A stretch of 64,000 nucleotides of DNA from Halobacteriovorax sp. HLS (GTDB lineage: Bacteria > Bdellovibrionota > Bacteriovoracia > Bacteriovoracales > Bacteriovoracaceae). Of this stretch, positions 17,463 to 37,287 are shown piece by piece. Within the stretch, counting starts at the first letter, position 1; the number at the start of each line of letters is the position of its first letter. The notes under the pieces were generated by a model. That model was not told where the DNA came from. It saw only the letters and a list, made by a program, of their open reading frames with translations, and did not search any database. The stretch lies in contig NZ_QOCL01000012.1 in the NCBI RefSeq assembly GCF_004006665.1, positions 62,001 to 126,000 of the forward strand, given 5' to 3'. The translations under genes and the position numbers were made by a program.

Positions 17463-17553
17463 GAACGAGAATTTAGGTGTTTATATATCTCTAGATTCAT
17501 ACTTCATAACAACTTACTTGATATTATTAAAAAAACTTAATTAGGTGATATAT

Positions 17554-20500
17554 ATGGCAAAAGATGAGGAACTACTTAAAACAAAAGAGCTGACTCTTGA
17601 TGAACTTGAGTTTAATTCTTCTGATACTTCAATATCACCATTAGATAATAGTGCTCCATCTAATATTTTTGGAAAAAGCTCCGGTGTTATTGATGATGTT
17701 GGAGGAATATCAAATTTTAATGTTGGTTCTGATATTGCAAAAAAACAGAGTGGTTTTACTTCGCAGGATTCGGCCATTCAAAATTCAATTAGTTCTAACG
17801 AAATAGAGTCTGAGCTTGAAAGTTATATTTTTAACGAAATCGCTGGCCTTGATAATGCTCCTTTGACTGATCAACAAAGAAGTTTTCTTTTGAGTTTAAA
17901 TCAAGATCAACGTGAACTTCTTATAAATCAAGTATATGAAAATAATTCAGACATAGAAAATTTACTTCCAAGGGAAGAGTTGAGTCTTTTTGATGAGTTT
18001 TCATCTGCTGATGATAATATAGGCCTTAGGCAAAAGGCAGCTCCAGATCAACGGCAAAGTACTAGTACTAATTTAGATAATACAGCGGATTCGATATCAA
18101 CTGGTGGCAATGCTCCTAATGGCCCAGTTGATGATCAATTAGCAGAAAAAGTTATAGTTGATGATATAGACTTATCACTTTTAGAAGATGGAAGTGTAAG
18201 ATTAAATTTTAATATTAATATTATTGATAATGATGGTTCTGAAGTTCAGACATATATAATCAAGGATATCCCTCAAGGATCTACATTTAATGTAGGGACT
18301 AAGTTAGATTCTGGTAGCTGGTCTTTTTCTGCTGAGGAAATTAATTCATTAGTTTTTACACCTGCGCAGAACTTCTCAGGAAATATAGATTTAACTTTAC
18401 AAACAATTAATACGGAATTGTCTTCTGGGGATACTTCAGTTACTTATTCTTCAATACACTTTGATGTTGTTGCTGTTGCTGATTCCCCAACAGTGAATGT
18501 ACGAAATATTACTGGTGATGAAGATGGATGGATAAATTTAGACTTGTCTGCTTCTTTAAATGATAATGATGGTTCTGAGTCTCTAACGTTACTTTTGGAA
18601 AATGTTCCAAATGGAAGTATTCTAACTAAAGGAGTTTATCTAGGGGATGGCTCTTGGGAGATTGCTAGTTCTGATTTAGATAGTATCATGCTCTTACCTC
18701 CTGAGAACTATAGTGGACAAACAGAGCTAAATCTCGTTGCAATTTCAACGGAAAGTTCTAACGGTGATTCCTCTAAAGTTATTAAGAGCTTTGCTCTTGA
18801 TGTAAATAGTGTCGTTGATGGTGCCAACCTCTTCGTTGAAAATGCTTCAGGACTTGAAGATACGGCCATTGCTTTAAATATTGATGCAGTTGCTATTGAT
18901 CAAGATGGCAGTGAGACATTGGAAGTTATCATCAGTGGTGTTCCAAGTGAAGCGACTCTTTCAAATGGTTCACGAAACGATGATGGAACTTGGACTTTAA
19001 CTGGTGATGAACTAGATGGATTAACAATCACACCTGCACCAAATGATAGCACTGATATTCAGCTTCAGGTGAGTGCTACAACAACTGAGCTTGATTCGGG
19101 AGATTCAAAAACGACCACTGTTGATTTAGATATTGATATTACAGGTGTGGCCGATGCTCCAGTTGTAAGAGTTGAAAACGCTGCAGGTAATGAAGATACT
19201 TGGATTCAACTAGATATTAAAGGTGATTTAGTTGATACTGATGGCAGTGAAACACTTTCATTTACCATTACAAATGTTCCAGATGGGGCGCAATTTTCAC
19301 CTGCTGGTATTCGTAATGATGATGGAAGCTGGACTTTTACCGAAGCACAGGCCGAAGTTCTTTGTATTAAAGGGCCAGCAAATAGTAGTGATGATTTTAC
19401 CCTTAAAATTAGTGCAGTCGTTACAGAAAATGATGGAGACCAATATGTCTCAGAAAATTATGATCTAAATGTTGATTTACATGGTGTCTCTGATGGTGCC
19501 AACCTCTCTGTTGAAAATGCTTCAGGACTTGAAGATACTGCAATTGCTTTAAATATTGAAGCATCCCTGATTGATTTAGATGGTAGTGAGTCTCTATCTA
19601 TTATTATCGAAAATGTTCCAGAAGGTGCATTCTTAAATAATGGGACTCGAAATGAGAATGGACAATGGGTTTTAAGTGCAGATGATCTTAATGGACTTAC
19701 AATTACACCAAATGCAAATGATGATTCAGATTTTACTCTCAATATCTCTGCTGTTGCTGAAGATGGTCTTTCATCTGATACAAATCTCAAGTCCATTGAT
19801 GTCATAGTTGATCCTGTTGCTGATACTCCAATTTTAATAGTGGATGATGCCCAGGGAAAGGCCACAGAAAGTATCGATATCGATATTATGGCAAGTCTGA
19901 CAGATCTCGATGGCAGTGAGAATCTAACCGTTACTATTTCAGGAGTACCTCAAGGTCATATTTTCAATAATGGAATAAATAATAATGATGGTACATGGTC
20001 TTTTCAAGAGGGGGAGCTTGACAACCTTAGCGTTCAGTCATCTGAAGAATCATTTGGTGATTTCACATATACAGTTACTGCCACAGCAACAGATGGGGAT
20101 GATCAAGTATCTATAACAGATTCACTAAATATAACAATTGATAAACCTATAGAAAATGAAGGTGCTGAAATAAGTGCCACTGATGTCTCTGGAGTTGAAG
20201 ATCGGTGGATGAAGTTAAAGTTTGACTTGGATGTTTTAGATACAGATGGAAATGAGAGTACGACACTCTACTTAGAAGGTGTTCCTGAAGGCTCTAGGAT
20301 GAAAGGTGCTAGAGATTTGGGTGATGGCGTATGGGAAGTGACTACCAATAATTTAAAGTCATTAAAATTGAAAGCACCTGCTAATGATAACTCAGACTTT
20401 GAACTTGATCTTGTCGCAAGAACAACAAATTCTGAGACCAACGAAGTTACTGAAGTCAGAGAAAGCTTTAATGTCGATGTTGAAGGTAGAGTAGATAATG

Positions 20501-21837
20501 TAAGACTGCAAAGTAATAGGTTCTCTGGCAGTGAGGATACTGCTATTGATCTAGACTTTGACTTCAATTTTAAGGATTCTGATGGCTCAGAAAGTATAGA
20601 TAGTATTGTATTTTCCAAAGTTCCAGATGGTGCGACTTTCTCAAGTGGCCAATCAATTGGCAAAGGAAAGTGGATTGTTAATTCAGATGAACTTGATGGA
20701 CTTTCAATAACACCTGCTGAAAATAGTTCGAAAAACTTCAATATGAAAATGGTTTATACTGTGTCGGAAAACGATGGTGCAACTAGAAATTTTACTAGGT
20801 CAGTATCAATAAATGTGGATGGAGTTTCTGATAATGTGTCCATATCTAATGAAGAAGTTTTTGGCCTAGAAGGAGAGGCCGTTAAGTTAGAACTTGATTT
20901 TGTTATGAATGATAATGATGGCTCAGAGTCAATTCGCTCCGTTATTTTTGATGATCTACCTGATGGAAGCTATTTGAGTAGTGGAACCTTAAACGATGAT
21001 GGAAGTTGGACTGTGCCAGTCAATAAACTTAATGACCTTAAAATGATTAATGATGAAGACCTTTCTGGTGACTTTGATTTAAGTCTATCTATTGTTTCCG
21101 GTGAAAAAAATGGTGGAGCTGATCTTACGATTAGTGAAGTCCCATTATCTGTTCATATTGAGGGAGTTGCTGATGCCCCTTATCTGGAAGCAACAGATAT
21201 AACTGTGGAAGGAACAGGGGAGGTTAGTTTAGATATAAGCTCAAGTCTTTCAGATTTAGACGGCAGTGAATCACTCAGCATTATTATCAGTGGGGTTCCT
21301 GAAACGAGTACATTGAATAAGGGAACACTTCTAGAGGATGGTAATTGGCAACTAAATGAGTCTGAACTTGAAGGATTATCTCTAAATCTTAATGGTGAAA
21401 ATGAAGAAGACTTTAGTCTTAATGTTGAGGCAATTGCAACAGAGAGTAATGGAGATATGGCAAGTACTTCTGTAGAGATAGAAGTCACTGTTGATCAATC
21501 TGAGCTTGAACAGTTTTGCGTGGCCGGTAATGGGCGTTTTTCAAATATGTTTAAGGGAATGAAAGACTTTCAAAATACAGATGATAGCTTTGATAACTTC
21601 TTACAGAACTTTGATCATGATAATGCAAACCATGGAAATGTATTTGACCATAATAACAATTCTGATAATGGTAACCATCATGGTTTTGATAACGGTCATG
21701 CTCATGGACATGATAAAGATGATCACGACAATAATGGAAAGGGGCATGGCAAGGGCCATGATAAGCACGAAGATCAAAGCTGTGATGATCAGCATAACGA
21801 TTATAACGATAGTGACGGAAGCAACAACGTCGCGTAG
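17554..21837 (+). CDS. Giant repeat protein, probable type I secretion substrate
   Basis: A 1427-residue acidic protein with no signal peptide. Residues 1-200 are polar and disordered-looking. About 200-1313 hold ten tandem cadherin/Ig-like repeats of about 110 residues, each with an ED..I start, D-x-DGSE, VP-x-G, DG-x-W, an EL..L step and a closing VAD-P-type strand. The tail (about 1340-1427) is rich in His, Asp, Asn and Gly, with 13 His in about 70 residues. Asp-rich repeats fit calcium binding in the repeat-adhesin families. Its position between the HlyD/ABC genes and a TolC-like gene makes it the likely exported cargo. ATG 17554 has AGGTG six bases upstream; the GTG at 17545 is the alternative. 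Confidence 0.88.
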   Translation: MAKDEELLKTKELTLDELEFNSSDTSISPLDNSAPSNIFGKSSGVIDDVGGISNFNVGSDIAKKQSGFTSQDSAIQNSISSNEIESELESYIFNEIAGLDNAPLTDQQRSFLLSLNQDQRELLINQVYENNSDIENLLPREELSLFDEFSSADDNIGLRQKAAPDQRQSTSTNLDNTADSISTGGNAPNGPVDDQLAEKVIVDDIDLSLLEDGSVRLNFNINIIDNDGSEVQTYIIKDIPQGSTFNVGTKLDSGSWSFSAEEINSLVFTPAQNFSGNIDLTLQTINTELSSGDTSVTYSSIHFDVVAVADSPTVNVRNITGDEDGWINLDLSASLNDNDGSESLTLLLENVPNGSILTKGVYLGDGSWEIASSDLDSIMLLPPENYSGQTELNLVAISTESSNGDSSKVIKSFALDVNSVVDGANLFVENASGLEDTAIALNIDAVAIDQDGSETLEVIISGVPSEATLSNGSRNDDGTWTLTGDELDGLTITPAPNDSTDIQLQVSATTTELDSGDSKTTTVDLDIDITGVADAPVVRVENAAGNEDTWIQLDIKGDLVDTDGSETLSFTITNVPDGAQFSPAGIRNDDGSWTFTEAQAEVLCIKGPANSSDDFTLKISAVVTENDGDQYVSENYDLNVDLHGVSDGANLSVENASGLEDTAIALNIEASLIDLDGSESLSIIIENVPEGAFLNNGTRNENGQWVLSADDLNGLTITPNANDDSDFTLNISAVAEDGLSSDTNLKSIDVIVDPVADTPILIVDDAQGKATESIDIDIMASLTDLDGSENLTVTISGVPQGHIFNNGINNNDGTWSFQEGELDNLSVQSSEESFGDFTYTVTATATDGDDQVSITDSLNITIDKPIENEGAEISATDVSGVEDRWMKLKFDLDVLDTDGNESTTLYLEGVPEGSRMKGARDLGDGVWEVTTNNLKSLKLKAPANDNSDFELDLVARTTNSETNEVTEVRESFNVDVEGRVDNVRLQSNRFSGSEDTAIDLDFDFNFKDSDGSESIDSIVFSKVPDGATFSSGQSIGKGKWIVNSDELDGLSITPAENSSKNFNMKMVYTVSENDGATRNFTRSVSINVDGVSDNVSISNEEVFGLEGEAVKLELDFVMNDNDGSESIRSVIFDDLPDGSYLSSGTLNDDGSWTVPVNKLNDLKMINDEDLSGDFDLSLSIVSGEKNGGADLTISEVPLSVHIEGVADAPYLEATDITVEGTGEVSLDISSSLSDLDGSESLSIIISGVPETSTLNKGTLLEDGNWQLNESELEGLSLNLNGENEEDFSLNVEAIATESNGDMASTSVEIEVTVDQSELEQFCVAGNGRFSNMFKGMKDFQNTDDSFDNFLQNFDHDNANHGNVFDHNNNSDNGNHHGFDNGHAHGHDKDDHDNNGKGHGKGHDKHEDQSCDDQHNDYNDSDGSNNVA
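18151..21490 (+). repeat. Ten tandem ~330-base repeats encoding ~110-residue domains
   Basis: Repeat starts are recognisable by the encoded E-D/E-x-x-I box and the DGSE box roughly every 330 bases. Copies three and five are the most alike: stretches near 18825-18890 and 19490-19555 are almost identical at DNA level, whereas most copies share only motif positions. This suggests a recent duplication or gene-conversion event inside an older array. Confidence 0.8.
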
Positions 21838-27298: not shown

Positions 27299-28228
27299 AT
27301 GAATGTATTTAAAAAAGCTCTTGTTGCAATCGCTTTATTAGCTGCAACATTTTCTGCGCAAGCAATCGAAGTAAGCTTTGATTTCACTGTTTTCTCTTCA
27401 GGGTCATCAATCTATCCATGTAATGCTGGTATTAAGCATGCTAACCCAAGACAAGAAGTTTGTTACGAAAGAACTAATCCAAACAACTCTTGTAACCCAA
27501 ATGCTTGTGAAGATGGTGAGAGCTGTGACTGTGTATGTGCAGGAACAAACGGTGGACAGTACAACGTTGACTTCTTAAAAGCGAGCTATGCTAACTGGAC
27601 AGATCATAATGAAACAATTGGATCTTCTACAGCAGCAACTGTAAAAGCTTCTACAAGTAACAACTACATCTTTTCTAACGACTCTGATGCAAATGGTTCA
27701 GTAACAAATGCTAACTACTTTGATAAGCAATTAACTGCTCTTACTTTCAACCTTGGTACAGAGACTTTTGGTGCAGAGTACGTTCTTGACGTATGTTTCA
27801 GAGGACCACAAATTGATTACGCTTCTTCTGACATCAGATCTAACTGGACTGCAAAAGCTCAAGCAACTATCCAAGATATGCTTGGTTACGAAAGCTATGC
27901 TTCTGTTGCTGGTTTAAAAGTTGATTCTGAAGTTGTTTGTGAGCACCAAGTTGCTGGTAACCCACTTCCACTTAACACTGTTCCAAATGCACTTACTTTT
28001 GGAGACAATGGAATTTATGATGACCTAATTCTTAATGCTGACCTTGGTCTTTCTGATGTTGCAAAAGGTTCTGCTTCTGTAACTGGTCCAAGAGGAACTA
28101 CTCCAACTTTCTGTAGAGTAAGATACACATTCTCTGAAGGTAATGGTCTTTCTGGTAGAGAACTATTCAGACCATGGAAAAAGCAAGCTGCGAAAGTTTG
28201 TACTAAAACAAGTATCGAAGAACCGTAG
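27299..28228 (+). CDS. Exported Cys-rich protein, likely abundant; founder of a secreted cluster
   Basis: A 309-residue protein with a Sec signal peptide (cleavage near ...SAQA, residue 22). Residues 41-80 hold seven Cys with spacing C-x13-C-x9-C-x4-C-x5-C-x-C-x-C (Cys41, 55, 65, 70, 76, 78, 80). The same block, plus the FNLGTE..G.EY segment and the FCRVR..F..E...FRPW segment, recur in the gene at 29863, so the two are paralogues. Asn and Tyr codons favour AAC and TAC, unlike most neighbours, suggesting high expression. AAGGAG precedes the ATG, and a terminator-like hairpin separates it from the next gene. I recognise no family. A secreted or surface structural protein is the best guess. Confidence 0.8.
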   Translation: MNVFKKALVAIALLAATFSAQAIEVSFDFTVFSSGSSIYPCNAGIKHANPRQEVCYERTNPNNSCNPNACEDGESCDCVCAGTNGGQYNVDFLKASYANWTDHNETIGSSTAATVKASTSNNYIFSNDSDANGSVTNANYFDKQLTALTFNLGTETFGAEYVLDVCFRGPQIDYASSDIRSNWTAKAQATIQDMLGYESYASVAGLKVDSEVVCEHQVAGNPLPLNTVPNALTFGDNGIYDDLILNADLGLSDVAKGSASVTGPRGTTPTFCRVRYTFSEGNGLSGRELFRPWKKQAAKVCTKTSIEEP

Positions 28229-28238
28229 TAAAATATAG

Positions 28239-28270
28239 ATGCTGAGAGAGAATTCTCTCAGCATTTCTTT
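28239..28270 (+). terminator. Terminator-like hairpin between first and second cluster genes
   Basis: A perfect 10-bp stem ATGCTGAGAG / CTCTCAGCAT (28239-28248, 28255-28264) with a 6-base loop, followed by TTCTTT. The next gene starts 34 bases later without a clear promoter, so partial read-through is likely. Confidence 0.7.
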
Positions 28271-28303
28271 ATAATGTATTTTTTGTTGAAAGCTGGAGTA
28301 GAA

Positions 28304-29863
28304 ATGAACAAATTAACGACGATCACAATTTTATTTTTTGGGCTAATGTTTCAAACATTCGCTTGTGATGTTATTTCTCCTAAGCAAGTAAGCCTTGCCA
28401 TTTCGACTAACGATCAAGAAGAAATACACTATAATGCACTTAAAGTTCTAAACACTGCACCATATACAACTATTAATAATTGTAAAATGACTGCTGCGAA
28501 AAGAAATTTTCTTATGCTAGCCGTTGGGATTGAAAACCTCATCTTAACAAATCAAAATAGTACGTATTCAATTGCTGATAGAGAAAGAGAGCACTCATGT
28601 CGTATTGAGAATTCTGAACTTAAGTCAAAAGTTACTTTCAAAGAAATTAACGAAGAATTAAAGCTTAAAAGAGACCTTTTAAACAGTTGTGTCGTGACAA
28701 AGGTTACAGACTTTGGGCCTAAGGGACTACAGTTTCCTGCGGATCAAACTGGTTGTAAAATTACTCGAGTTTCGGATCATTCTGCCAACTTTACAGGAAA
28801 GTATTGTTACTTTACACCAGACTTTAATAGCCACTTCTCTGTTGAACTAGAAGTCTCTTCAGAGTGTTTAACTGTTCAAGGTTTAAAAGATAAGAAAATC
28901 ACAGCAAAAGATTTTAATGCTATTTTAAACTTTTATACTTCTGATGTTTCTACAGGTCAAAATAACAATCTAGAGGCCATTGGTGGTACAGATATTAGAT
29001 TTTCTGTAAATCCTATTTCGGAAGTTGTTAAGCCGGCAGATGACTTTGGGGTTAAGAGACCTGTTTTTCCTGCAGAATATGTAATAAATGATATCCATTT
29101 AGCAAAGCCGAGTGCAAAATTTAGAGGAAGAGAGATAGAGTTAAACTTTCCATTCGTTGTCGATACAAGATGTGAAAGAAAGTGTGTTGACGGGCTTTGT
29201 TCTTCTCCGTGTGATTATGCAACACCGATTGTAGGTGAACATACTTTAGAAATTCTTGAAAATGGAAAATGGGAATATTTAACTTCTTGGTATGATGGTG
29301 CAGTTGCTCCAGGGCAGTGGCAAGGTATTTTACATGGTGTAGGAAAAGGAATCCAAAAAGGGGCTCTACCACTTAATACAAAGTATAGAGTTCGCATTGA
29401 GTTTAAAGAACCAAATATTGATTTCAAATACTTTGATGGGGATATTGATAGAAGAATCTTCCTTGTGAACAACAATATAGGCGTTATTTCAAATAGAGGA
29501 CGTATTGGGTTAATTCCACTTATTCATGAGATTGTTAATGGTCAAGAAGTCCCATTGATTCATACGATTTCTCAATTGGACTTTGATAACTCTCTTGATG
29601 GAGTTGAAAAGTCTTTAAGAACATTTCAGTCATACTTAAATAACAAGTTCTGGCCACCTCTTTATGAAAAAGTATGTAGCACTAAAGGTAAGTGTGTTGA
29701 TAATGGAAAGAAATTTCTTGAATTAACAGCGGAGTTTACTTTAAAAGCGTCTGGAAGAAAGTATGAAATGCAAGACGTAACTTTTAAAAGAAAATCAATC
29801 TTTGGCGGTAACTATTCTAAGAAAATGGAAGTTTACCCAAGCGTTGAATGTGGTAGGCAATAA
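28304..29863 (+). CDS. Exported protein of unknown function (519 aa), second gene of the cluster
   Basis: Signal peptide at residues 1-18 or so (ends QTFA, then Cys19). The lipobox is poor, so a soluble or surface protein is more likely than a lipoprotein. The mature part has scattered Cys pairs, including CERKCVDGLCSSPC near residue 290, and beta-rich segments. No catalytic motif is recognised. I use ATG 28304, with TGGAGT nine bases before it; an in-frame ATG at 28274 would put ten extra residues before a good signal peptide and has no ribosome binding site. The stop overlaps the next ATG by one base (TAATG), so the two products are probably made in fixed ratio. Confidence 0.72.
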   Translation: MNKLTTITILFFGLMFQTFACDVISPKQVSLAISTNDQEEIHYNALKVLNTAPYTTINNCKMTAAKRNFLMLAVGIENLILTNQNSTYSIADREREHSCRIENSELKSKVTFKEINEELKLKRDLLNSCVVTKVTDFGPKGLQFPADQTGCKITRVSDHSANFTGKYCYFTPDFNSHFSVELEVSSECLTVQGLKDKKITAKDFNAILNFYTSDVSTGQNNNLEAIGGTDIRFSVNPISEVVKPADDFGVKRPVFPAEYVINDIHLAKPSAKFRGREIELNFPFVVDTRCERKCVDGLCSSPCDYATPIVGEHTLEILENGKWEYLTSWYDGAVAPGQWQGILHGVGKGIQKGALPLNTKYRVRIEFKEPNIDFKYFDGDIDRRIFLVNNNIGVISNRGRIGLIPLIHEIVNGQEVPLIHTISQLDFDNSLDGVEKSLRTFQSYLNNKFWPPLYEKVCSTKGKCVDNGKKFLELTAEFTLKASGRKYEMQDVTFKRKSIFGGNYSKKMEVYPSVECGRQ

Positions 29864-31221
29864 TGTTAAGAGTATTAATCGTTCTAACATTTCTATTCTC
29901 AGCTAATACTTTCGCCGGAATCTGTAAAGATAGTGGTAAAGACTTAGGGAAGATCACAATTTGCCATGCAGGAAATGATAATAATAATCCAGGGCGTGTT
30001 AACTTCGTTAATATCTGTGTTGATTTCGCTTCTGTTCATGGTCATATAAAAAATCATGATCATGACTCAATTGGTGCATGTGGAAGTTCTGACTTAAAAG
30101 AAGGTTTGGCTTATGCTTGTAATGCGGGAATTAAACACGTCGAGCCAGCAGAGAGAACTTGTTACACGAGGTCCACTCCAAGAATATCTTGTAATCCTAA
30201 CGCTTGTGTAAGTGGTCAGTCTTGTGACTGTGTTTGTTCTGGCACTTCTGGTGGCGCTAGTAATGTTGACTTTATGACTTTTAACGGAAGATCATTCAGT
30301 GACATTGCTGAGTTAGACTTATTATCTCAAGAGAGTTTTTGGGATAGCACAAGGCAGTCAAAAACTTCTAGTCTATCAATGAACTCAGGTAGTATTGATT
30401 CTGAACAATTTGTTGTGGCAACACATAGTCCAAGAAACTACGTACTTAAAGACAAGAGCTTGTCTTTTAACTTAGGAACAGAGCTCTACGGAACTGAGTA
30501 CTTTGTCGATCTGTGCTGGCAAAATATCAATGAAGACAATAAGGGAAGTTTCGATTTGCTTCCAAGCTATGGCTATAAAAATAAAACACTTTTTGGTGAT
30601 AGCTATGTAGATTTTGCAAATATATATACTCGAACACAGGTTTATTGTACAAGTGATCAAGGCACCGAATTTATTGCTTTTGATGAAGATTATACTATGT
30701 TTCCGAGTCAAATGCAGGATCTATTTCCAAATGTTGGAAGTGTTGAAGACGTAAGTTTTTGTCGTGTTAGACATTACTTCAAAGAAGATACAAATGCCTT
30801 TAGGCCGTGGGAGCTAAATGCTGTTGAAATTAGTACTAAGTTAGAGGTTGTATTAACTGATGATCAAGAAGCTCCTGAGGATAATGGACTAATCCTATGT
30901 CACCCAATTACTTACTTAGACAATAGAGGACGTGAAGTTAGCAAGGTGTGTCAACTAGAGTTTAATAACTCGAATGAATATGAAGCCTTTGTTTTACACC
31001 ACGAAGACAATTCTGTTGGAAATGGAAATGGAAATGGAAACCAATCGAACTCATCTTATAGTGTTAACCATAATCATGACTATAGAGTGATTTCAGGATC
31101 TTGTGGGGGACAAATAGCGAGCCCACAAGTTTGTTATGAACAAATGAACTTAATAGAGGGCTATAGGCACTCAGATAATTTACAAAAAGATTTTGAATTT
31201 AAAAAAGCATTAAAATTATAG
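29863..31221 (+). CDS. Exported Cys/His-rich protein, paralogue of the first cluster gene
   Basis: 452 residues with a signal peptide (about 1-18). Residues 30-73 hold a secreted 'ICH...ICV...GH...H..D..GAC' module of a type I recall from bacterial surface proteins. Residues 83-345 match the gene at 27299: seven Cys with identical spacing (86, 100, 110, 115, 121, 123, 125), a FNLGTELYGTEY segment, and FCRVRHYFKE...FRPW. Residues 350-430 look like a second, weaker copy of the ICH module (LCHP...VCQ...LHHED) containing a GN repeat. The architecture is module, core, module, suggesting an end-cap or cross-linking version of the 27299 protein. Start overlaps the previous stop. Confidence 0.75.
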   Translation: MLRVLIVLTFLFSANTFAGICKDSGKDLGKITICHAGNDNNNPGRVNFVNICVDFASVHGHIKNHDHDSIGACGSSDLKEGLAYACNAGIKHVEPAERTCYTRSTPRISCNPNACVSGQSCDCVCSGTSGGASNVDFMTFNGRSFSDIAELDLLSQESFWDSTRQSKTSSLSMNSGSIDSEQFVVATHSPRNYVLKDKSLSFNLGTELYGTEYFVDLCWQNINEDNKGSFDLLPSYGYKNKTLFGDSYVDFANIYTRTQVYCTSDQGTEFIAFDEDYTMFPSQMQDLFPNVGSVEDVSFCRVRHYFKEDTNAFRPWELNAVEISTKLEVVLTDDQEAPEDNGLILCHPITYLDNRGREVSKVCQLEFNNSNEYEAFVLHHEDNSVGNGNGNGNQSNSSYSVNHNHDYRVISGSCGGQIASPQVCYEQMNLIEGYRHSDNLQKDFEFKKALKL

Positions 31222-31242
31222 AATATTACTGTGGAGGTAATT

Positions 31243-31767
31243 ATGAAAAAGGTATTATTAACTCTAGCGCTAGCTTGTTCTTTTACAGCTTCAGCAACAA
31301 ATGTAGATGACCTATTCGCTGGTGGAGAAAGAGAGTTTGAGTTTGAAAGATTTGCTGATGATGCGATTTTATTAGAGATCGATAGAGAAGCTGAAATGGC
31401 ATGTGAAAAAGGTGTTTGTACTCTTCACGCAGTAACTAATAACTACGGTGGATTTGAAGTTGCTTTCAACGTTGGTGAAGGTGATAACAACAATAACGGT
31501 GGTGGGACTAATATCTACACTGGTGGAGCAGGTTACAATACAAATGATAACTCTGAATACTGGGGATTCACAGTAAAATATAAAAGAGGACAATGTACTC
31601 AACGAATTAGAGTTCCAAAATCTGTTTACTATTCAATTAACAGATATATGTATGGACTAATGACTGAAGAGGGTGGAACTAGAAGAGGTTTTACTCCTGC
31701 CGACGAAGCTATGATCATGTTTTACACAACAATCATGAGTAAAGCTAACGGTTGTACAATGCAATAA
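31243..31767 (+). CDS. Small exported protein (174 aa), fourth gene of the cluster
   Basis: Signal peptide about 1-18 (TASA). The mature protein has an acidic N-terminus, Cys54 and Cys59 (CEKGVC), a Gly/Asn-rich loop near 80-102 and a helical C-terminus with a final Cys. I use ATG 31243, with GGAGG five bases upstream; the GTG at 31231 overlaps that site. The CE..xVCT pattern and the K-S-V/I-Y segment also occur in the last cluster gene (34681), so these two small proteins may be distant relatives. No family recognised. Confidence 0.72.
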   Translation: MKKVLLTLALACSFTASATNVDDLFAGGEREFEFERFADDAILLEIDREAEMACEKGVCTLHAVTNNYGGFEVAFNVGEGDNNNNGGGTNIYTGGAGYNTNDNSEYWGFTVKYKRGQCTQRIRVPKSVYYSINRYMYGLMTEEGGTRRGFTPADEAMIMFYTTIMSKANGCTMQ

Positions 31768-31790
31768 GCTTTTCTTTTTGTATATATTAA

Positions 31791-31813
31791 TTGGCCTCTA
31801 ATTTGGAGGCCAA
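31791..31813. repeat. GGCC-containing inverted repeat after the fourth cluster gene
   Basis: TTGGCCTC / GAGGCCAA (31791-31798, 31806-31813) with a 7-base loop and no T tract after it. It may be a 3' mRNA end or a regulatory site within the cluster. Confidence 0.45.
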
Positions 31814-31912
31814 CCTATTGAAAAGATAAGATAAGTAAGTTCAAGTAATAATTTCAATTTACATACTTTAGAGGCCACATTCTGATATTATGCTCAGAAT
31901 TTGGAGACATGC

Positions 31913-34681
31913 ATGAAAAATACAAGAATACTGGTCAGTTTATTGGCCCTATTTACGATACTTTCAACCTACTCATCAGAGTGGATGAGCGTTGATCAAT
32001 CAGCTACTAAGTTTGAACTCAATAATATGAGATTCTCCAATAGAGCTAGATGTGCATTAGATTCTAAAGTACCAACAGACTCGGCCTTCTTACTTGTTAC
32101 TAATGTTGATGCTGCTAAAGCAGTTTATAGACTTGCTTCATTAAGAGGTGAGGATACAAATACTGTAACTAAGTATGGTATTGAGGTATTTAGATACTCT
32201 GTTGTAAACTTGGTTAAGATGATTCATGAGAAATTAATGAATCGTGAACTACCACTTCTTACACATGATCTTAAAAGAGATGATCTTCATATTCCTGGTA
32301 ATTATAGAAACGTTATGGCCAATTGCCGTAATGACGAATATTGCTCAGGTCTAGATGATTATATCGCGAAAATCTGGAAAATTACTTCAAAGAAAGTTCC
32401 AGCTGCTAGAAAAGTAGTCGACTTCTACACTGTTGATAACTTCCATTCTCAAGATAGCTATATACTAGATAAAACTTTTGAAAAAAATAGCTTTAATAGT
32501 GAAATGAAGTGTCACTACTTAAAGAAGTTCTCTCCACTTCAGGCCCAACTATATGGGACAAAGCCTGATAAGCAGGCCCTTGAATCTATTGCTCGTGCAG
32601 CTTTAGAGTCAGAAAAATATTTAGCTGAATGTAATGATTTTGATTCACAAAAGAACTTACAAGTAGCAGCTTATCAATTAGAAATACCAAACTTAAAAGA
32701 AAAGAAGTGGGAAGATAAAGGTTTCGATTACTGGAACTCACTTAAATTATATTTCTCTTGGGCCTATAGAAATGCTCCAGAGATGCAACAACTAGCAGCG
32801 CCTTTTGCAAGCGTCTTTAAAGGCGTAGCAATTGAAGACTCTGTTTTAATAGTACCAAATGGTTGTAAGTCTATAACTGCTCCAAAGTGTGATGGAGACT
32901 TTCTTGCTCAGCAAGCGATGAGAGAGTTTGCGAAGGAAGACTTTAAAGAAACAGCTTTAAACCTTGATATAATGACATCTGTGCCGGAAGGACCACAAGA
33001 TGACTTACTTTCTGATCCATTCACTTCTGTAAATGTTGATGAGTTAGACCTTGGTGGATTTGCAAATGCTGAAGCATGGCTAGCAAACTTTAGAGAGAAC
33101 TTTGCAGGAACTAGAGCTTTGATGAAAAAGAAACTCATCAAATCTATTTCAACTTTAAATATTACGAAATCTAAAATTTCTCCAAATAAACTAGCGGATC
33201 TTTTAGAAGAAAGATTCTCTGTACTTTTAAATTCTCAAACAGTGAATGCTCAGTATAATGAGCTAAAGAATGATCTCTACTACCTTTGTGCTGAATTCAA
33301 TTTTGCTGATCATGATGAGTTTAGTTTCTTAAAAGGAAAGCTTGAAATACTAAAAGAGACAACTCTTGTTGATGGACTTGTTTCTGATATCTCTCAGGAG
33401 AAAACAAAAGCACTTTATGATTACTACACTGTTATCGCAGATAAAGTTATCAGTGGATGTTATGAGTTAAATCAGAAGAATATTTGGAATGATTCTTTTA
33501 CTCTAGATAAGACAGGTTTTTCTCCATGGTATGTTCAAAAGGTTTACGAGAACAAATTTAAGTCAAGTTATGACCAAAAGAATGTTGAATTCTTAAAAAC
33601 TAATAAGCCTTTACTTGCTTGGAAAAAGTACAACGATACATTTGATTATGAAGATGTTATTTGTGCTAATGCAAGTGATTGTTCAAGAAAGATTTTGAAG
33701 TCTGTAATTGATCTATATTCTGTTGCTCAATACGCTTCAACTTTCTGGAACCTAGAGCAAGAAATTAAAACTCCGGCCTTATTTAATCCTTACGCCGAAA
33801 GAACAGCTTGTAAGGTTTATGATCCATGGTTTAAAACAAAGTCAGTCTTATTTAATTTATTCACAGATATGTCCCAAGCTGCTCTTTCAGTTGCAACTCC
33901 TGGTGTAATCTACGGTAGACTAGACCTTAAGCCGGGAACTGTAACTTCTTTCAACCAAATGGTAACTGATGGAAGAATTTCATATGACACTAGATACGAC
34001 CGTTCTCGTATAACAACTTCTCTAGTGGCAGATTTTGGTCCACTACTTGGTGTTCCGTGTATGATTTCGGTTACAGGATCACCTGATAACCCTTATGATC
34101 AATATCGTTTTGCTGGTGTAAGTGTTGGAGCTTGTAACTCTGTTGACGATAATAATTTAAATGTTAGAACTGCATCAGATTATGATGATAATGCAAGAAA
34201 TGTTCATTCGGAGTGTATCAGTTGTCAGCTTAACTTTGAAAGTGTTGTTAGCTCTTTAACTAATCTATCTGCTGAAGTAGGACCAACATTCTTCTTATTT
34301 AGAGCAGTATTTAGACTTTATAAAGGTCTAAAAGATCCACATAATATACCTAGAAGCTGGGAAACTAATCCAAATTATGTATCTGAGACATATAGAAGAT
34401 TTAATGGTTCTATTCCTAAGAGTTGCGTAAGATCACTGAGAAAAGGAAAGAGATGTTTAGCGAATTCTTGTGAGTCTGAAGTTGCTGAAAAAGTAACTGA
34501 TGCACTACGTGGAAACATACAGTCTATTGATGCTCCAAGATCAGGAACTGCAAAAATAAAACTATCTTCTTGTTCGCAAGAAATTAAAGTTACTGTTAAT
34601 AGAGATCAGAATGGGCTTGGTTGTAGAGTAGGACGTGTTAGTGCTCCTAGCTCTTGTAAGTCTATTGAGAAGGAAAGATAA
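31913..34681 (+). CDS. Large exported protein of unknown function (922 aa)
   Basis: Signal peptide about 1-22. The mature protein is mostly helical and contains many Cys spread along it (for example CRNDEYC near 135, CISCQ near 763, CVRSLRKGKRCLANSCE near 835-850). Near the C-terminus it turns basic and beta-rich. No catalytic motif, repeat or membrane segment is evident. I use ATG 31913, with GGAGA five bases before it; the TTG at 31901 overlaps that site. It ends in TAATG shared with the next gene. Its place at the end of five same-strand exported proteins suggests a shared process such as assembly or anchoring, but this is inference only. Confidence 0.72.
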   Translation: MKNTRILVSLLALFTILSTYSSEWMSVDQSATKFELNNMRFSNRARCALDSKVPTDSAFLLVTNVDAAKAVYRLASLRGEDTNTVTKYGIEVFRYSVVNLVKMIHEKLMNRELPLLTHDLKRDDLHIPGNYRNVMANCRNDEYCSGLDDYIAKIWKITSKKVPAARKVVDFYTVDNFHSQDSYILDKTFEKNSFNSEMKCHYLKKFSPLQAQLYGTKPDKQALESIARAALESEKYLAECNDFDSQKNLQVAAYQLEIPNLKEKKWEDKGFDYWNSLKLYFSWAYRNAPEMQQLAAPFASVFKGVAIEDSVLIVPNGCKSITAPKCDGDFLAQQAMREFAKEDFKETALNLDIMTSVPEGPQDDLLSDPFTSVNVDELDLGGFANAEAWLANFRENFAGTRALMKKKLIKSISTLNITKSKISPNKLADLLEERFSVLLNSQTVNAQYNELKNDLYYLCAEFNFADHDEFSFLKGKLEILKETTLVDGLVSDISQEKTKALYDYYTVIADKVISGCYELNQKNIWNDSFTLDKTGFSPWYVQKVYENKFKSSYDQKNVEFLKTNKPLLAWKKYNDTFDYEDVICANASDCSRKILKSVIDLYSVAQYASTFWNLEQEIKTPALFNPYAERTACKVYDPWFKTKSVLFNLFTDMSQAALSVATPGVIYGRLDLKPGTVTSFNQMVTDGRISYDTRYDRSRITTSLVADFGPLLGVPCMISVTGSPDNPYDQYRFAGVSVGACNSVDDNNLNVRTASDYDDNARNVHSECISCQLNFESVVSSLTNLSAEVGPTFFLFRAVFRLYKGLKDPHNIPRSWETNPNYVSETYRRFNGSIPKSCVRSLRKGKRCLANSCESEVAEKVTDALRGNIQSIDAPRSGTAKIKLSSCSQEIKVTVNRDQNGLGCRVGRVSAPSSCKSIEKER

Positions 34682-35235
34682 TGAAAAAACTAATTATTGT
34701 TATAGCTCTAACACTCGTCTCACAACTAGCTTTTGGTTACACTGTTGAATCAAGCTGGAATGATAGTTATCAAAAAGAGTTAAGCTTCTACTGTGTTGAA
34801 GGTGATAACCTTTGCCAAGACCTGTGTGAAAATAACTCAGTTTGTACTATTAGAGAAGAGACTTGTCATAACTGTATTGGAACTTCAATCTCTATAACTT
34901 ATATTTTCAACTATATGGGAAAGGCCTATACTAATACTGAAGTAGAAAAGAATGAGTATGATGTTCTCTCAACACTACAAAGTGGAAATTTTGTAACTTT
35001 CTCTTCAAAAAGTATCTATAACCACGTTGATAGATTCAACTCAAGCGCTCTAAAAAGGAACTTTAGAAGCCTTTGTAGTGATGGAACGAGATACCCAATA
35101 GTTCTTTTTAATAAGAATACTAGAAATCAAAGAGTAGGAGATGTTCAATTTGTCTTCTGTGATAATGGTGTTTTTGAGATGAGCTTCGGAGCTGATGTTA
35201 TAACAAACTTCGAGTCTGCTAACTCTCTGTTCTAA
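34681..35235 (+). CDS. Small exported Cys-rich protein (184 aa), last gene of the cluster
   Basis: Signal peptide about 1-19. Six Cys lie within residues 38-65 (38, 45, 49, 55, 62, 65), and two more lie in the C-terminal half. The ATG overlaps the previous stop by one base, so it is translationally coupled to the 922-residue protein, perhaps as a partner. It shares a short Cys pattern with the small protein at 31243. Its end overlaps the convergent peptidase gene by 17 bases. Function unknown. Confidence 0.72.
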   Translation: MKKLIIVIALTLVSQLAFGYTVESSWNDSYQKELSFYCVEGDNLCQDLCENNSVCTIREETCHNCIGTSISITYIFNYMGKAYTNTEVEKNEYDVLSTLQSGNFVTFSSKSIYNHVDRFNSSALKRNFRSLCSDGTRYPIVLFNKNTRNQRVGDVQFVFCDNGVFEMSFGADVITNFESANSLF

Positions 35236-35816: not shown

Positions 35817-36176
35817 ATGAATTACCTTGTTGTTGCTGTATTATTATTCTCTACTTCAATCTTAGCTTTAGAAAGATCAGATGCTTTTATTGTCAGGGCG
35901 TATAATGACAAGTTTAAAGTTCTATCTCCTTCAAAGAAAACATCTAAGGTTAGTGTTATTGTAGAAAATAAAACTCTAGTTAAGTTAATAGGGGAGATCG
36001 TTGATGGAAATGGTCGTGTACTCTCTATGGTAACGATCAAGCCTGGAAAGTATAAGAGCTTAGAGTTGGATTTTTCGAAAAATTCCTTATACTATTTTGT
36101 ACCACTATCTCCATCATTTCAAAAAGTTATATTAGACTTTGGTAAAGAGGCCTATGAGATTCCTTCAAAAAAATAA
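35817..36176 (+). CDS. Small exported beta-rich protein (119 aa)
   Basis: Signal peptide about 1-17 (STSILA). The mature part is beta-rich with an Ig-like look and no Cys. There is no ribosome binding site; TA-repeats form -10-like boxes directly before the ATG. The 3' end overlaps the metallophosphoesterase gene by 23 bases in another frame, so the two are probably cotranscribed. Function unknown. Confidence 0.6.
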   Translation: MNYLVVAVLLFSTSILALERSDAFIVRAYNDKFKVLSPSKKTSKVSVIVENKTLVKLIGEIVDGNGRVLSMVTIKPGKYKSLELDFSKNSLYYFVPLSPSFQKVILDFGKEAYEIPSKK

Positions 36177-37287
36177 AACGACCAAAACGATATTAGTTAT
36201 ATCTGATATACACCTCGGTGCTGGTGTTCTAGTAGATGGGAAAAGAAATTACTTAGAGGACTTTCATTTCGATAAAGAATTGGTTGATTTTTTAGATTAC
36301 TATTCGACAGGGGAGTATCAGCATAAAGAAGTTGAACTTATTATTAATGGTGACTTATTTGATCTCCTAGCAGTACCTTTCGTAAATTATTTTGATGATG
36401 AGTTTTGGAGTGAGGATGCTGCTTTAGCAAAGTTCGAAATGATTATCAAAGCTCATCCTGAAGTAATTGAGGCCATGGATAATTTTATTTCTCATAAGAG
36501 TAATAAGCTTGTTTATATTATTGGTAATCATGATGCCGAGTTTGTTTTCGAATCACTTAGAAAAAGGTTCTATTCTTTATTTTCTACAAAAAATGCTGAT
36601 AGAGTAAATATTGTTTTAAATAATACTGGAGAGTATATTCCAACTGAAGGTGTTGTATTAAAACACGGACATGAGTATGAGCTTGCTCATCACTTTCACC
36701 CTGAAAAATCTATTGCTCAAGATGAAGAAGGGAATAATTACTTCTTGCCTCCTTGGGGGTCTTACTATGTAACAAGAGTAATCAACAAATTTAAAGAAGA
36801 AAGAGACCATGTGAACGCTGTTCGTCCAATACGAAAGTTTCTAATTAATGGAATCATTTATGATACTTTCTTTACACTTCGTTTTATATTCGCAACGTGT
36901 TTTTACTTTATAATGGTTCGTTCAATTTACCTATTCAAACAAGAACAGAGTTTGAAGAAGATGTTAAAGCACTGTGCACATGAGTTAGAGTTATTTAAAG
37001 ATTATGAAACCTTAACTATGGACTTTTTCAAAGAAAGACCCGAGGTTCAGTGTTTAATTGTTGGCCATACTCACGATCCGAGTTTTCGTCCTTTCTCTGA
37101 TGGTAGAGTTTTTATTAACACGGGAACTTGGACAAGAATGTATAACTTAGACTTTGGAAAGAATGGATTTCGTGAGCAACTCTCTTTTGCTCAGATTGAT
37201 GTTCTTGATAAAGAAAAGAATATCTACGATATCAACTTGAATAATTGGAAAGGGAGATCGAATCTCCCTTTTGAAGAATTTTCTTAA
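36154..37287 (+). CDS. Calcineurin-like metallophosphoesterase with membrane segment
   Basis: All dimetal motifs are visible: SDIHLG (Asp18, His20), NGDLFD, GNHD, a GH at the GHEYELAHHF stretch and the final GHTHD. The family hydrolyses phosphomonoesters or diesters. LpxH-like (UDP-diacylglucosamine) enzymes and large uncharacterised branches share this plan. A hydrophobic stretch near 227-260 (TFFTLRFIFATCFYFIMV) is unusual inside such a domain and suggests membrane association. I use ATG 36154 with AGAGG just upstream; the TTG at 36139 lies in the middle of the previous gene. Length 377 aa. Confidence 0.82.
   Translation: MRFLQKNKTTKTILVISDIHLGAGVLVDGKRNYLEDFHFDKELVDFLDYYSTGEYQHKEVELIINGDLFDLLAVPFVNYFDDEFWSEDAALAKFEMIIKAHPEVIEAMDNFISHKSNKLVYIIGNHDAEFVFESLRKRFYSLFSTKNADRVNIVLNNTGEYIPTEGVVLKHGHEYELAHHFHPEKSIAQDEEGNNYFLPPWGSYYVTRVINKFKEERDHVNAVRPIRKFLINGIIYDTFFTLRFIFATCFYFIMVRSIYLFKQEQSLKKMLKHCAHELELFKDYETLTMDFFKERPEVQCLIVGHTHDPSFRPFSDGRVFINTGTWTRMYNLDFGKNGFREQLSFAQIDVLDKEKNIYDINLNNWKGRSNLPFEEFS

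Follow-up and report, generated by a model that had tools for sequence, protein, structure and literature searches.

What might be accomplished by a row of genes whose inferred products are exported, rich in cysteine and free of any recognised domain? The question is raised by six genes in a 64,000-nucleotide stretch of DNA (the window) from Halobacteriovorax sp. HLS, a Halobacteriovorax-type marine predator with a 3.84-Mb genome. The genes, here called A to F, have uvrB on one side and a convergent gene for an M48-type peptidase on the other. As a first-pass annotation of the window had it, they are consecutive open reading frames on the same strand, each encoding an exported protein:

27299–28228, + strand: gene A, 309-residue exported protein, predicted β-sandwich, 11 cysteines, the probable abundant subunit
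28237–28266, + strand: terminator-like stem-loop of 13 pairs between A and B, its structure kept in most Bacteriovoracaceae loci studied
28274–29863, + strand: gene B, exported protein of about 519 residues, 14 cysteines, likely start ATG at 28304
29863–31221, + strand: gene C (A'), 452-residue paralogue of A, 18 cysteines, flanking CH...HGH/CH...NHDH modules, accessory
31231–31767, + strand: gene D, exported protein of about 174 residues, 4 invariant cysteines beyond the signal peptide, probable ATG start at 31243
31901–34681, + strand: gene E, exported and mostly helical protein of about 922 residues, many invariant cysteines, the signature gene, likely start ATG at 31913
34681–35235, + strand: gene F, 184-residue exported protein, 8 cysteines, its start overlapping the stop of E

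The likely true starts of B, D and E were chosen from relatives and ribosome-binding sites. Three starts had been described as overlapping the preceding stop or following it closely; there are two such overlaps, at 29863 (C) and 34681 (F), and C and D are separated by a gap of 9 bp.

Several other genes lie nearby. Upstream of the cluster (window 17545–21837) is a gene for a 1430-residue protein that is likely to be located at the surface and whose domains include bacterial cadherin-like and Ig-like ones. On the other side lie gene G (window 35817–36176), encoding a small exported protein of 119 residues with no recognised domain, and a gene for a calcineurin-like phosphoesterase (window 36139–37287), the two being conserved together in nine loci of the family. 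Bdellovibrio relatives (L050 and L062) have a phosphoesterase homologue with 29% identity (702472–703611 in genome G190, apparently that of B. bacteriovorus HD100) in the vicinity of the cluster, beside genes of the Bd0739/dgcB region.

All six window proteins have a Sec-type hydrophobic N-terminus, as do, by a simple hydrophobicity test rather than SignalP, 94 of 102 A-type relatives and 60 of 62, 60 of 61, 61 of 64 and 61 of 63 relatives of B, D, E and F, respectively. The window proteins have no transmembrane segment or convincing lipobox; in 11 of 61 relatives, E has helices that come close to the hydrophobicity of a membrane span. A seven-cysteine core that had been noticed in two members is indeed present, with the spacing 14, 10, 5, 6, 2, 2, in A (from residue 41) and in C (from residue 86). 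C, which is paralogous to A (40% identical over 180 residues), bears, again as first described, further modules of the ICHAG...HGHIKNHDHDSIGAC type on either side of the core. The number of cysteines after the signal peptide is even in 57 of 62 relatives of B, 59 of 61 of D, 58 of 64 of E and 62 of 63 of F, counts that are taken over relatives and so are not independent. Invariant cysteines number 17 in E (53 sequences) and 4 in D. Because the counts are even in the relatives of B, D, E and F and because the genes stay together across families (see below), the cluster is not a product of chance. The even counts together with the many invariant cysteines point to proteins that live disulphide-bonded outside the cytoplasm.

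The annotation had seen no known catalytic domain, and none of A to F reached the curated thresholds of Pfam and NCBIfam, whether for the window proteins or for members of their families. Nor did PHROGs or PADLOC give a hit of convincing E-value; the domain searches with window proteins and family members returned sub-threshold noise such as Mucin, Crisp and DA_N, and profile searches against PDB sequences returned antibody chains and other noise and no match for the cluster proteins. Signal peptides apart, A, B, D, E and F were mutually unrelated in profile–profile comparison. E was absent from plasmids and from the viral contigs searched, and a scan of genome contigs with A had as its sole match a contig of the same group. 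The literature searched held no description of the cluster and no expression, proteomic or mutant data for its genes, although the HD100 tags were estimated from gene order, so that a search by tag could miss data. What appears to be new are these families and the combination of genes; their function is one that we infer.

Are the six genes a unit? Searches with iterative profiles at 64 E loci placed A near E in 63, B in 61, D in 61 and F in 63. In whole-genome searches of the Bdellovibrionota, E was present in 75 of 369 genomes and B in 74, with both in 72 (Fisher p = 3e-70, relatedness ignored). Members scattered without synteny, the outcome that had been named as a refutation, were looked for and proved not to be the case: in almost all genomes with E, that gene has A, B, D and F as neighbours. 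The order of the genes has nevertheless changed, being A-B-(C)-D-E-F in the Bacteriovoracaceae and D-E-F-A-B-A' in the Bdellovibrionaceae, with A-B inverted relative to D-E-F in several other lineages. That linkage was kept through this rearrangement argues for a functional bond. C, meanwhile, is missing, displaced or inverted in many genomes; the six genes of the annotation contract to a core of five with C as an accessory. The comparisons show the five core families A, B, D, E and F to constitute a co-inherited, linked module of predicted exported, disulphide-type proteins. In the Halobacteriovorax species G002 an A-type gene also stands alone (L053:13300–14187), accompanied by none of B, D, E or F.

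The module is patchily distributed. E is present in 17 of 24 genomes of the genus Bdellovibrio, absent from the other 7, and missing from most of genus g14, and the system is therefore accessory rather than essential for predation. We considered the module as a general marker of predators and dropped the idea, given the 7 of 24 Bdellovibrio-genus genomes without E. Two diverged copies of the cluster are present in G190 and in four other Bdellovibrio-genus genomes, the two E copies of G190 being 47% identical to each other. Near one of the G190 copies a GGDEF open reading frame (at 705077) fits dgcB (Bd0742); Bd0739 is close to dgcB (PMC11025332), which matches the surroundings of that copy. 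Directly upstream of the second G190 copy is a gene for a 1051-residue collagen-repeat protein (L095:12299–15454; G190 2843298–2846453).

Beside the cluster in 23 loci (for example, L094:3537–4733, which is G190 708536–709732) is a gene for an exported protein of about 398 residues with an invariant DCAD, a conserved GH, weak similarity to DUF4846 and, by eye, a papain- or NlpC-like pattern. We rejected this family as a core part, as it is multi-copy and broader than the cluster: it occurs in 162 of 369 genomes of the phylum, and its copies in the window's genome (C1:352938 and C3:434767) are unlinked to the cluster.

The genes of the cluster do not evolve alike. Within the window's genus, D (about 80% identity) and E (about 75%) are nearly as conserved as uvrB (81%–84%), whereas A, B and C (53%–68%) and F (58%–69%) evolve faster. 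An extreme case is G002, in which A, B and C are only 31%–33%, 26%–28% and 28%–30% identical, respectively, to those of its own genus, compared with 76%–82% for D, 71%–75% for E and 60%–69% for F. A, B and C have been replaced in G002 at an unchanged chromosomal site, with D, E and F staying in place. Indeed, the five species of the window's genus form one clade in the tree of E (support 100), whereas the tree of B joins G002 to G019, a member of another genus, and rejects monophyly of the window's genus (lnL difference 96, p-AU 1.6e-112; the case was picked after the low identity had been seen, so that the p-value is not blind, although the effect is a large one). L097 in Bdellovibrio is a second, weaker case, whose B is 33% identical to that of L094 while D is 93% identical (p-AU 0.046). 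Judged from these alignments and trees, D-E-F is shown to be a conserved, constant part, while the faster-diverging A, B and C can give way together to distant alleles. Exposed parts under changing selection would be expected to behave in this way, A-B-C being exchanged while D-E-F stays fixed, and A, B and C may be such parts.

The first gene is further set apart by the hairpin that directly follows it, in which the stem is succeeded by a T-rich tail. A stem was found in the A–B gap of 19 of 23 Bacteriovoracaceae loci, compared with 7 of 44 control gaps (p = 1e-7), and a T-run followed the stem in 15 of the 23 and in 4 of the 44. The sequences of the stems differ between loci while the pairing persists, including in the replaced cassette of G002. 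Outside the Bacteriovoracaceae, where A is often in mid-operon, the hairpin is not conserved (6 of 25); the Bdellovibrionaceae usually have A in fourth place, without a conserved stem. Partial termination is the natural reading of a conserved hairpin 3' of A, and it suggests that A is made in excess, as major subunits of fimbriae are; that A is the major subunit of the earlier proposal gains support in this way. Hairpins are also found 3' of D in some relatives, at a frequency not significantly above that of controls, and the D–E gap of the window contains an inverted repeat, TTGGCCTC...GAGGCCAA, at 31790–31814. We recognised no shared promoter motif ahead of A or E, and promoter-like sites were no commoner than in shuffled sequences.

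The predicted structure of A is a β-sandwich (pLDDT 80.6, pTM 0.80), and its best structural matches are common sandwiches. Among them is the TasA fibre (8aur; Z 5.6 over 142 residues), which does not stand above unrelated β-sandwiches, and several middling matches are carbohydrate-binding domains. Adjoining the signal-peptide cut is a conserved amphipathic strand motif, xFxFxVxSSGxxIYxCNAG, which is possibly an assembly strand. E was modelled confidently by AlphaFold (pLDDT 86.6, pTM 0.85) as a helical body, a β-meander (residues 670–777) with a helix on either side, and a small C-terminal domain. Full-length E matched nothing significantly in PDB or viral structures (Foldseek and VIA, the latter reaching at most Z 4.3), which does not prove a new fold, as E is long and was compared at full length. 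Its weak Foldseek matches, none of them significant and with E-values of about 1, included START, Bet v1-like, Ups1, SPLUNC1 and TraT.

How would such proteins leave the cell? We found no chaperone, usher, sortase, outer-membrane channel, anchor or polymerisation signal in the cluster, and the genome of the window and G190 had no match to the usher family PF00577. Each of the five genomes examined had a type II secretion pseudopilin, however. Type II secretion takes proteins that are already folded and disulphide-bonded. Because the cluster is without an outer-membrane channel of its own and the genomes carry the type II pseudopilin, a general exit route of this kind may be used.

We propose, with a probability of roughly 0.55, that the cluster encodes one disulphide-stabilised extracytoplasmic assembly, most likely located on or released from the cell surface. 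A, in large excess, would make up most of the structure; B and C, the latter being the paralogue of A, would be rarer, exposed parts that meet a variable partner (the surface of prey, a phage or the environment); D-E-F would form a periplasmic or outer-membrane base; and folded subunits would exit through general machinery, for example that of type II secretion. The annotation had envisaged a dedicated extracellular or surface assembly (a fibre, coat or adhesin). Linkage and co-occurrence bear out the multi-protein exported assembly, but its nature as a fibre, coat or adhesin and its extracellular site are not borne out, as channel, chaperone, usher and sortase are missing from the cluster and the TasA match is middling. 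A bolder version, which we regard as rather unlikely, is an undescribed extracellular filament or coat of the Bdellovibrionota in which disulphide-locked β-sandwiches of A would polymerise, perhaps by donating their conserved N-terminal strand, on a base of D, E and F that is unrelated to any known system, and in which swappable B and C would set the target of adhesion or the binding of phage.

The best-surviving alternative, although a somewhat unlikely one, is that the proteins form a periplasmic or outer-membrane complex of the envelope that is not exposed at the surface and handles, for example, lipids or glycans, with E as its core and the C-terminal β-meander of E, framed by hydrophobic helices, holding a ligand. 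The lack of a secretion channel, the high conservation of E and D, the helix-grip and lipid-transfer folds (and TraT) among the weak matches of E, and the carbohydrate-binding domains among those of A all fit such a complex. However, the fold matches of E lie at E-values of about 1 and VIA gave nothing above Z 4.3, and a buried complex leaves unexplained both the replacement of A-B-C alleles and the hairpin after A.

Distinctly unlikely, in our estimation, is a multi-subunit complex of secreted effectors delivered to prey during attack. The cluster does occur in known predators, including the genus of H. marinus SJ (PMC5760749) and Bdellovibrio, with two copies in G190, one of them near genes of the dgcB/Bd0739 region (PMC11025332, PMC6561027), and 23 loci are adjoined by the 398-residue exported family with its invariant DC and H residues. 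But that family is multi-copy and unlinked in the window's genome, the six genes are without a catalytic domain, and E is absent from 7 of 24 Bdellovibrio-genus genomes and most of genus g14. Finally, that the genes are unrelated and merely adjacent has the absence of recognised domains as its sole point in favour and is very improbable in the face of co-occurrence and synteny across the families of the phylum, in which order changed and linkage stayed.

If the cluster is a true surface assembly, as we favour, it would be a new multi-component structure of the envelope, one exposed part of which can be exchanged, and it would bear on the range of prey and on resistance to phage. Two copies are carried by the apparent HD100, a model predator, even though the families are unnamed in the libraries searched. 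The split between constant and variable genes and the hairpin after A assign concrete, testable roles to proteins that are without domains.

Does the cluster resemble any system already known? No Pfam family of the F-type conjugation proteins TraN, TraU or TraH appeared at E ≤ 1 among 24 E homologues, and E had no plasmid match. As to anti-phage defence, none of the six proteins matched a PADLOC defence model. Type IV pili and type II pseudopili are built from subunits with a class III signal peptide and a hydrophobic N-terminal helix that is retained, whereas the N-termini of A to F are of the usual Sec type, with AxA-like sites, and leave no transmembrane helix in place; the cluster contains no dedicated pilus or type II ATPase or secretin, and none of A to F has a pilin or fimbrial domain recognised by Pfam at the curated cut-off. 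The mosaic adhesive trimer fibres of Bdellovibrio and the MIDAS adhesin Bd0875 are likewise exported envelope proteins of the same predators, and one G190 copy of the cluster lies beside the collagen-repeat protein, but A to F have no recognised MIDAS/VWA or trimeric-fibre domain and belong to a linked multi-gene module rather than being single genes. A may resemble the donor-strand fibres of the TasA/camelysin type in its predicted β-sandwich and in the amphipathic strand after the signal peptide; it differs in being rich in cysteine and without a sequence match, its Z of 5.6 is within the range of common arrangements, and no partners of the SipW/TapA type were recognised for the cluster.

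Fimbrial operons combine an abundant β-sandwich subunit whose gene is followed by a hairpin, variable partner subunits and constant assembly genes. The cluster differs from chaperone–usher fimbriae in having no chaperone inside it and no PF00577 usher in the genome of the window or in G190. It is nevertheless like chaperone–usher and alternate chaperone–usher fimbriae in its putatively abundant β-sandwich subunit and hairpin, its variable partners and its constant genes, and by analogy it may be a polymorphic adhesin- or fimbria-like accessory device, outside the essential machine of predation.
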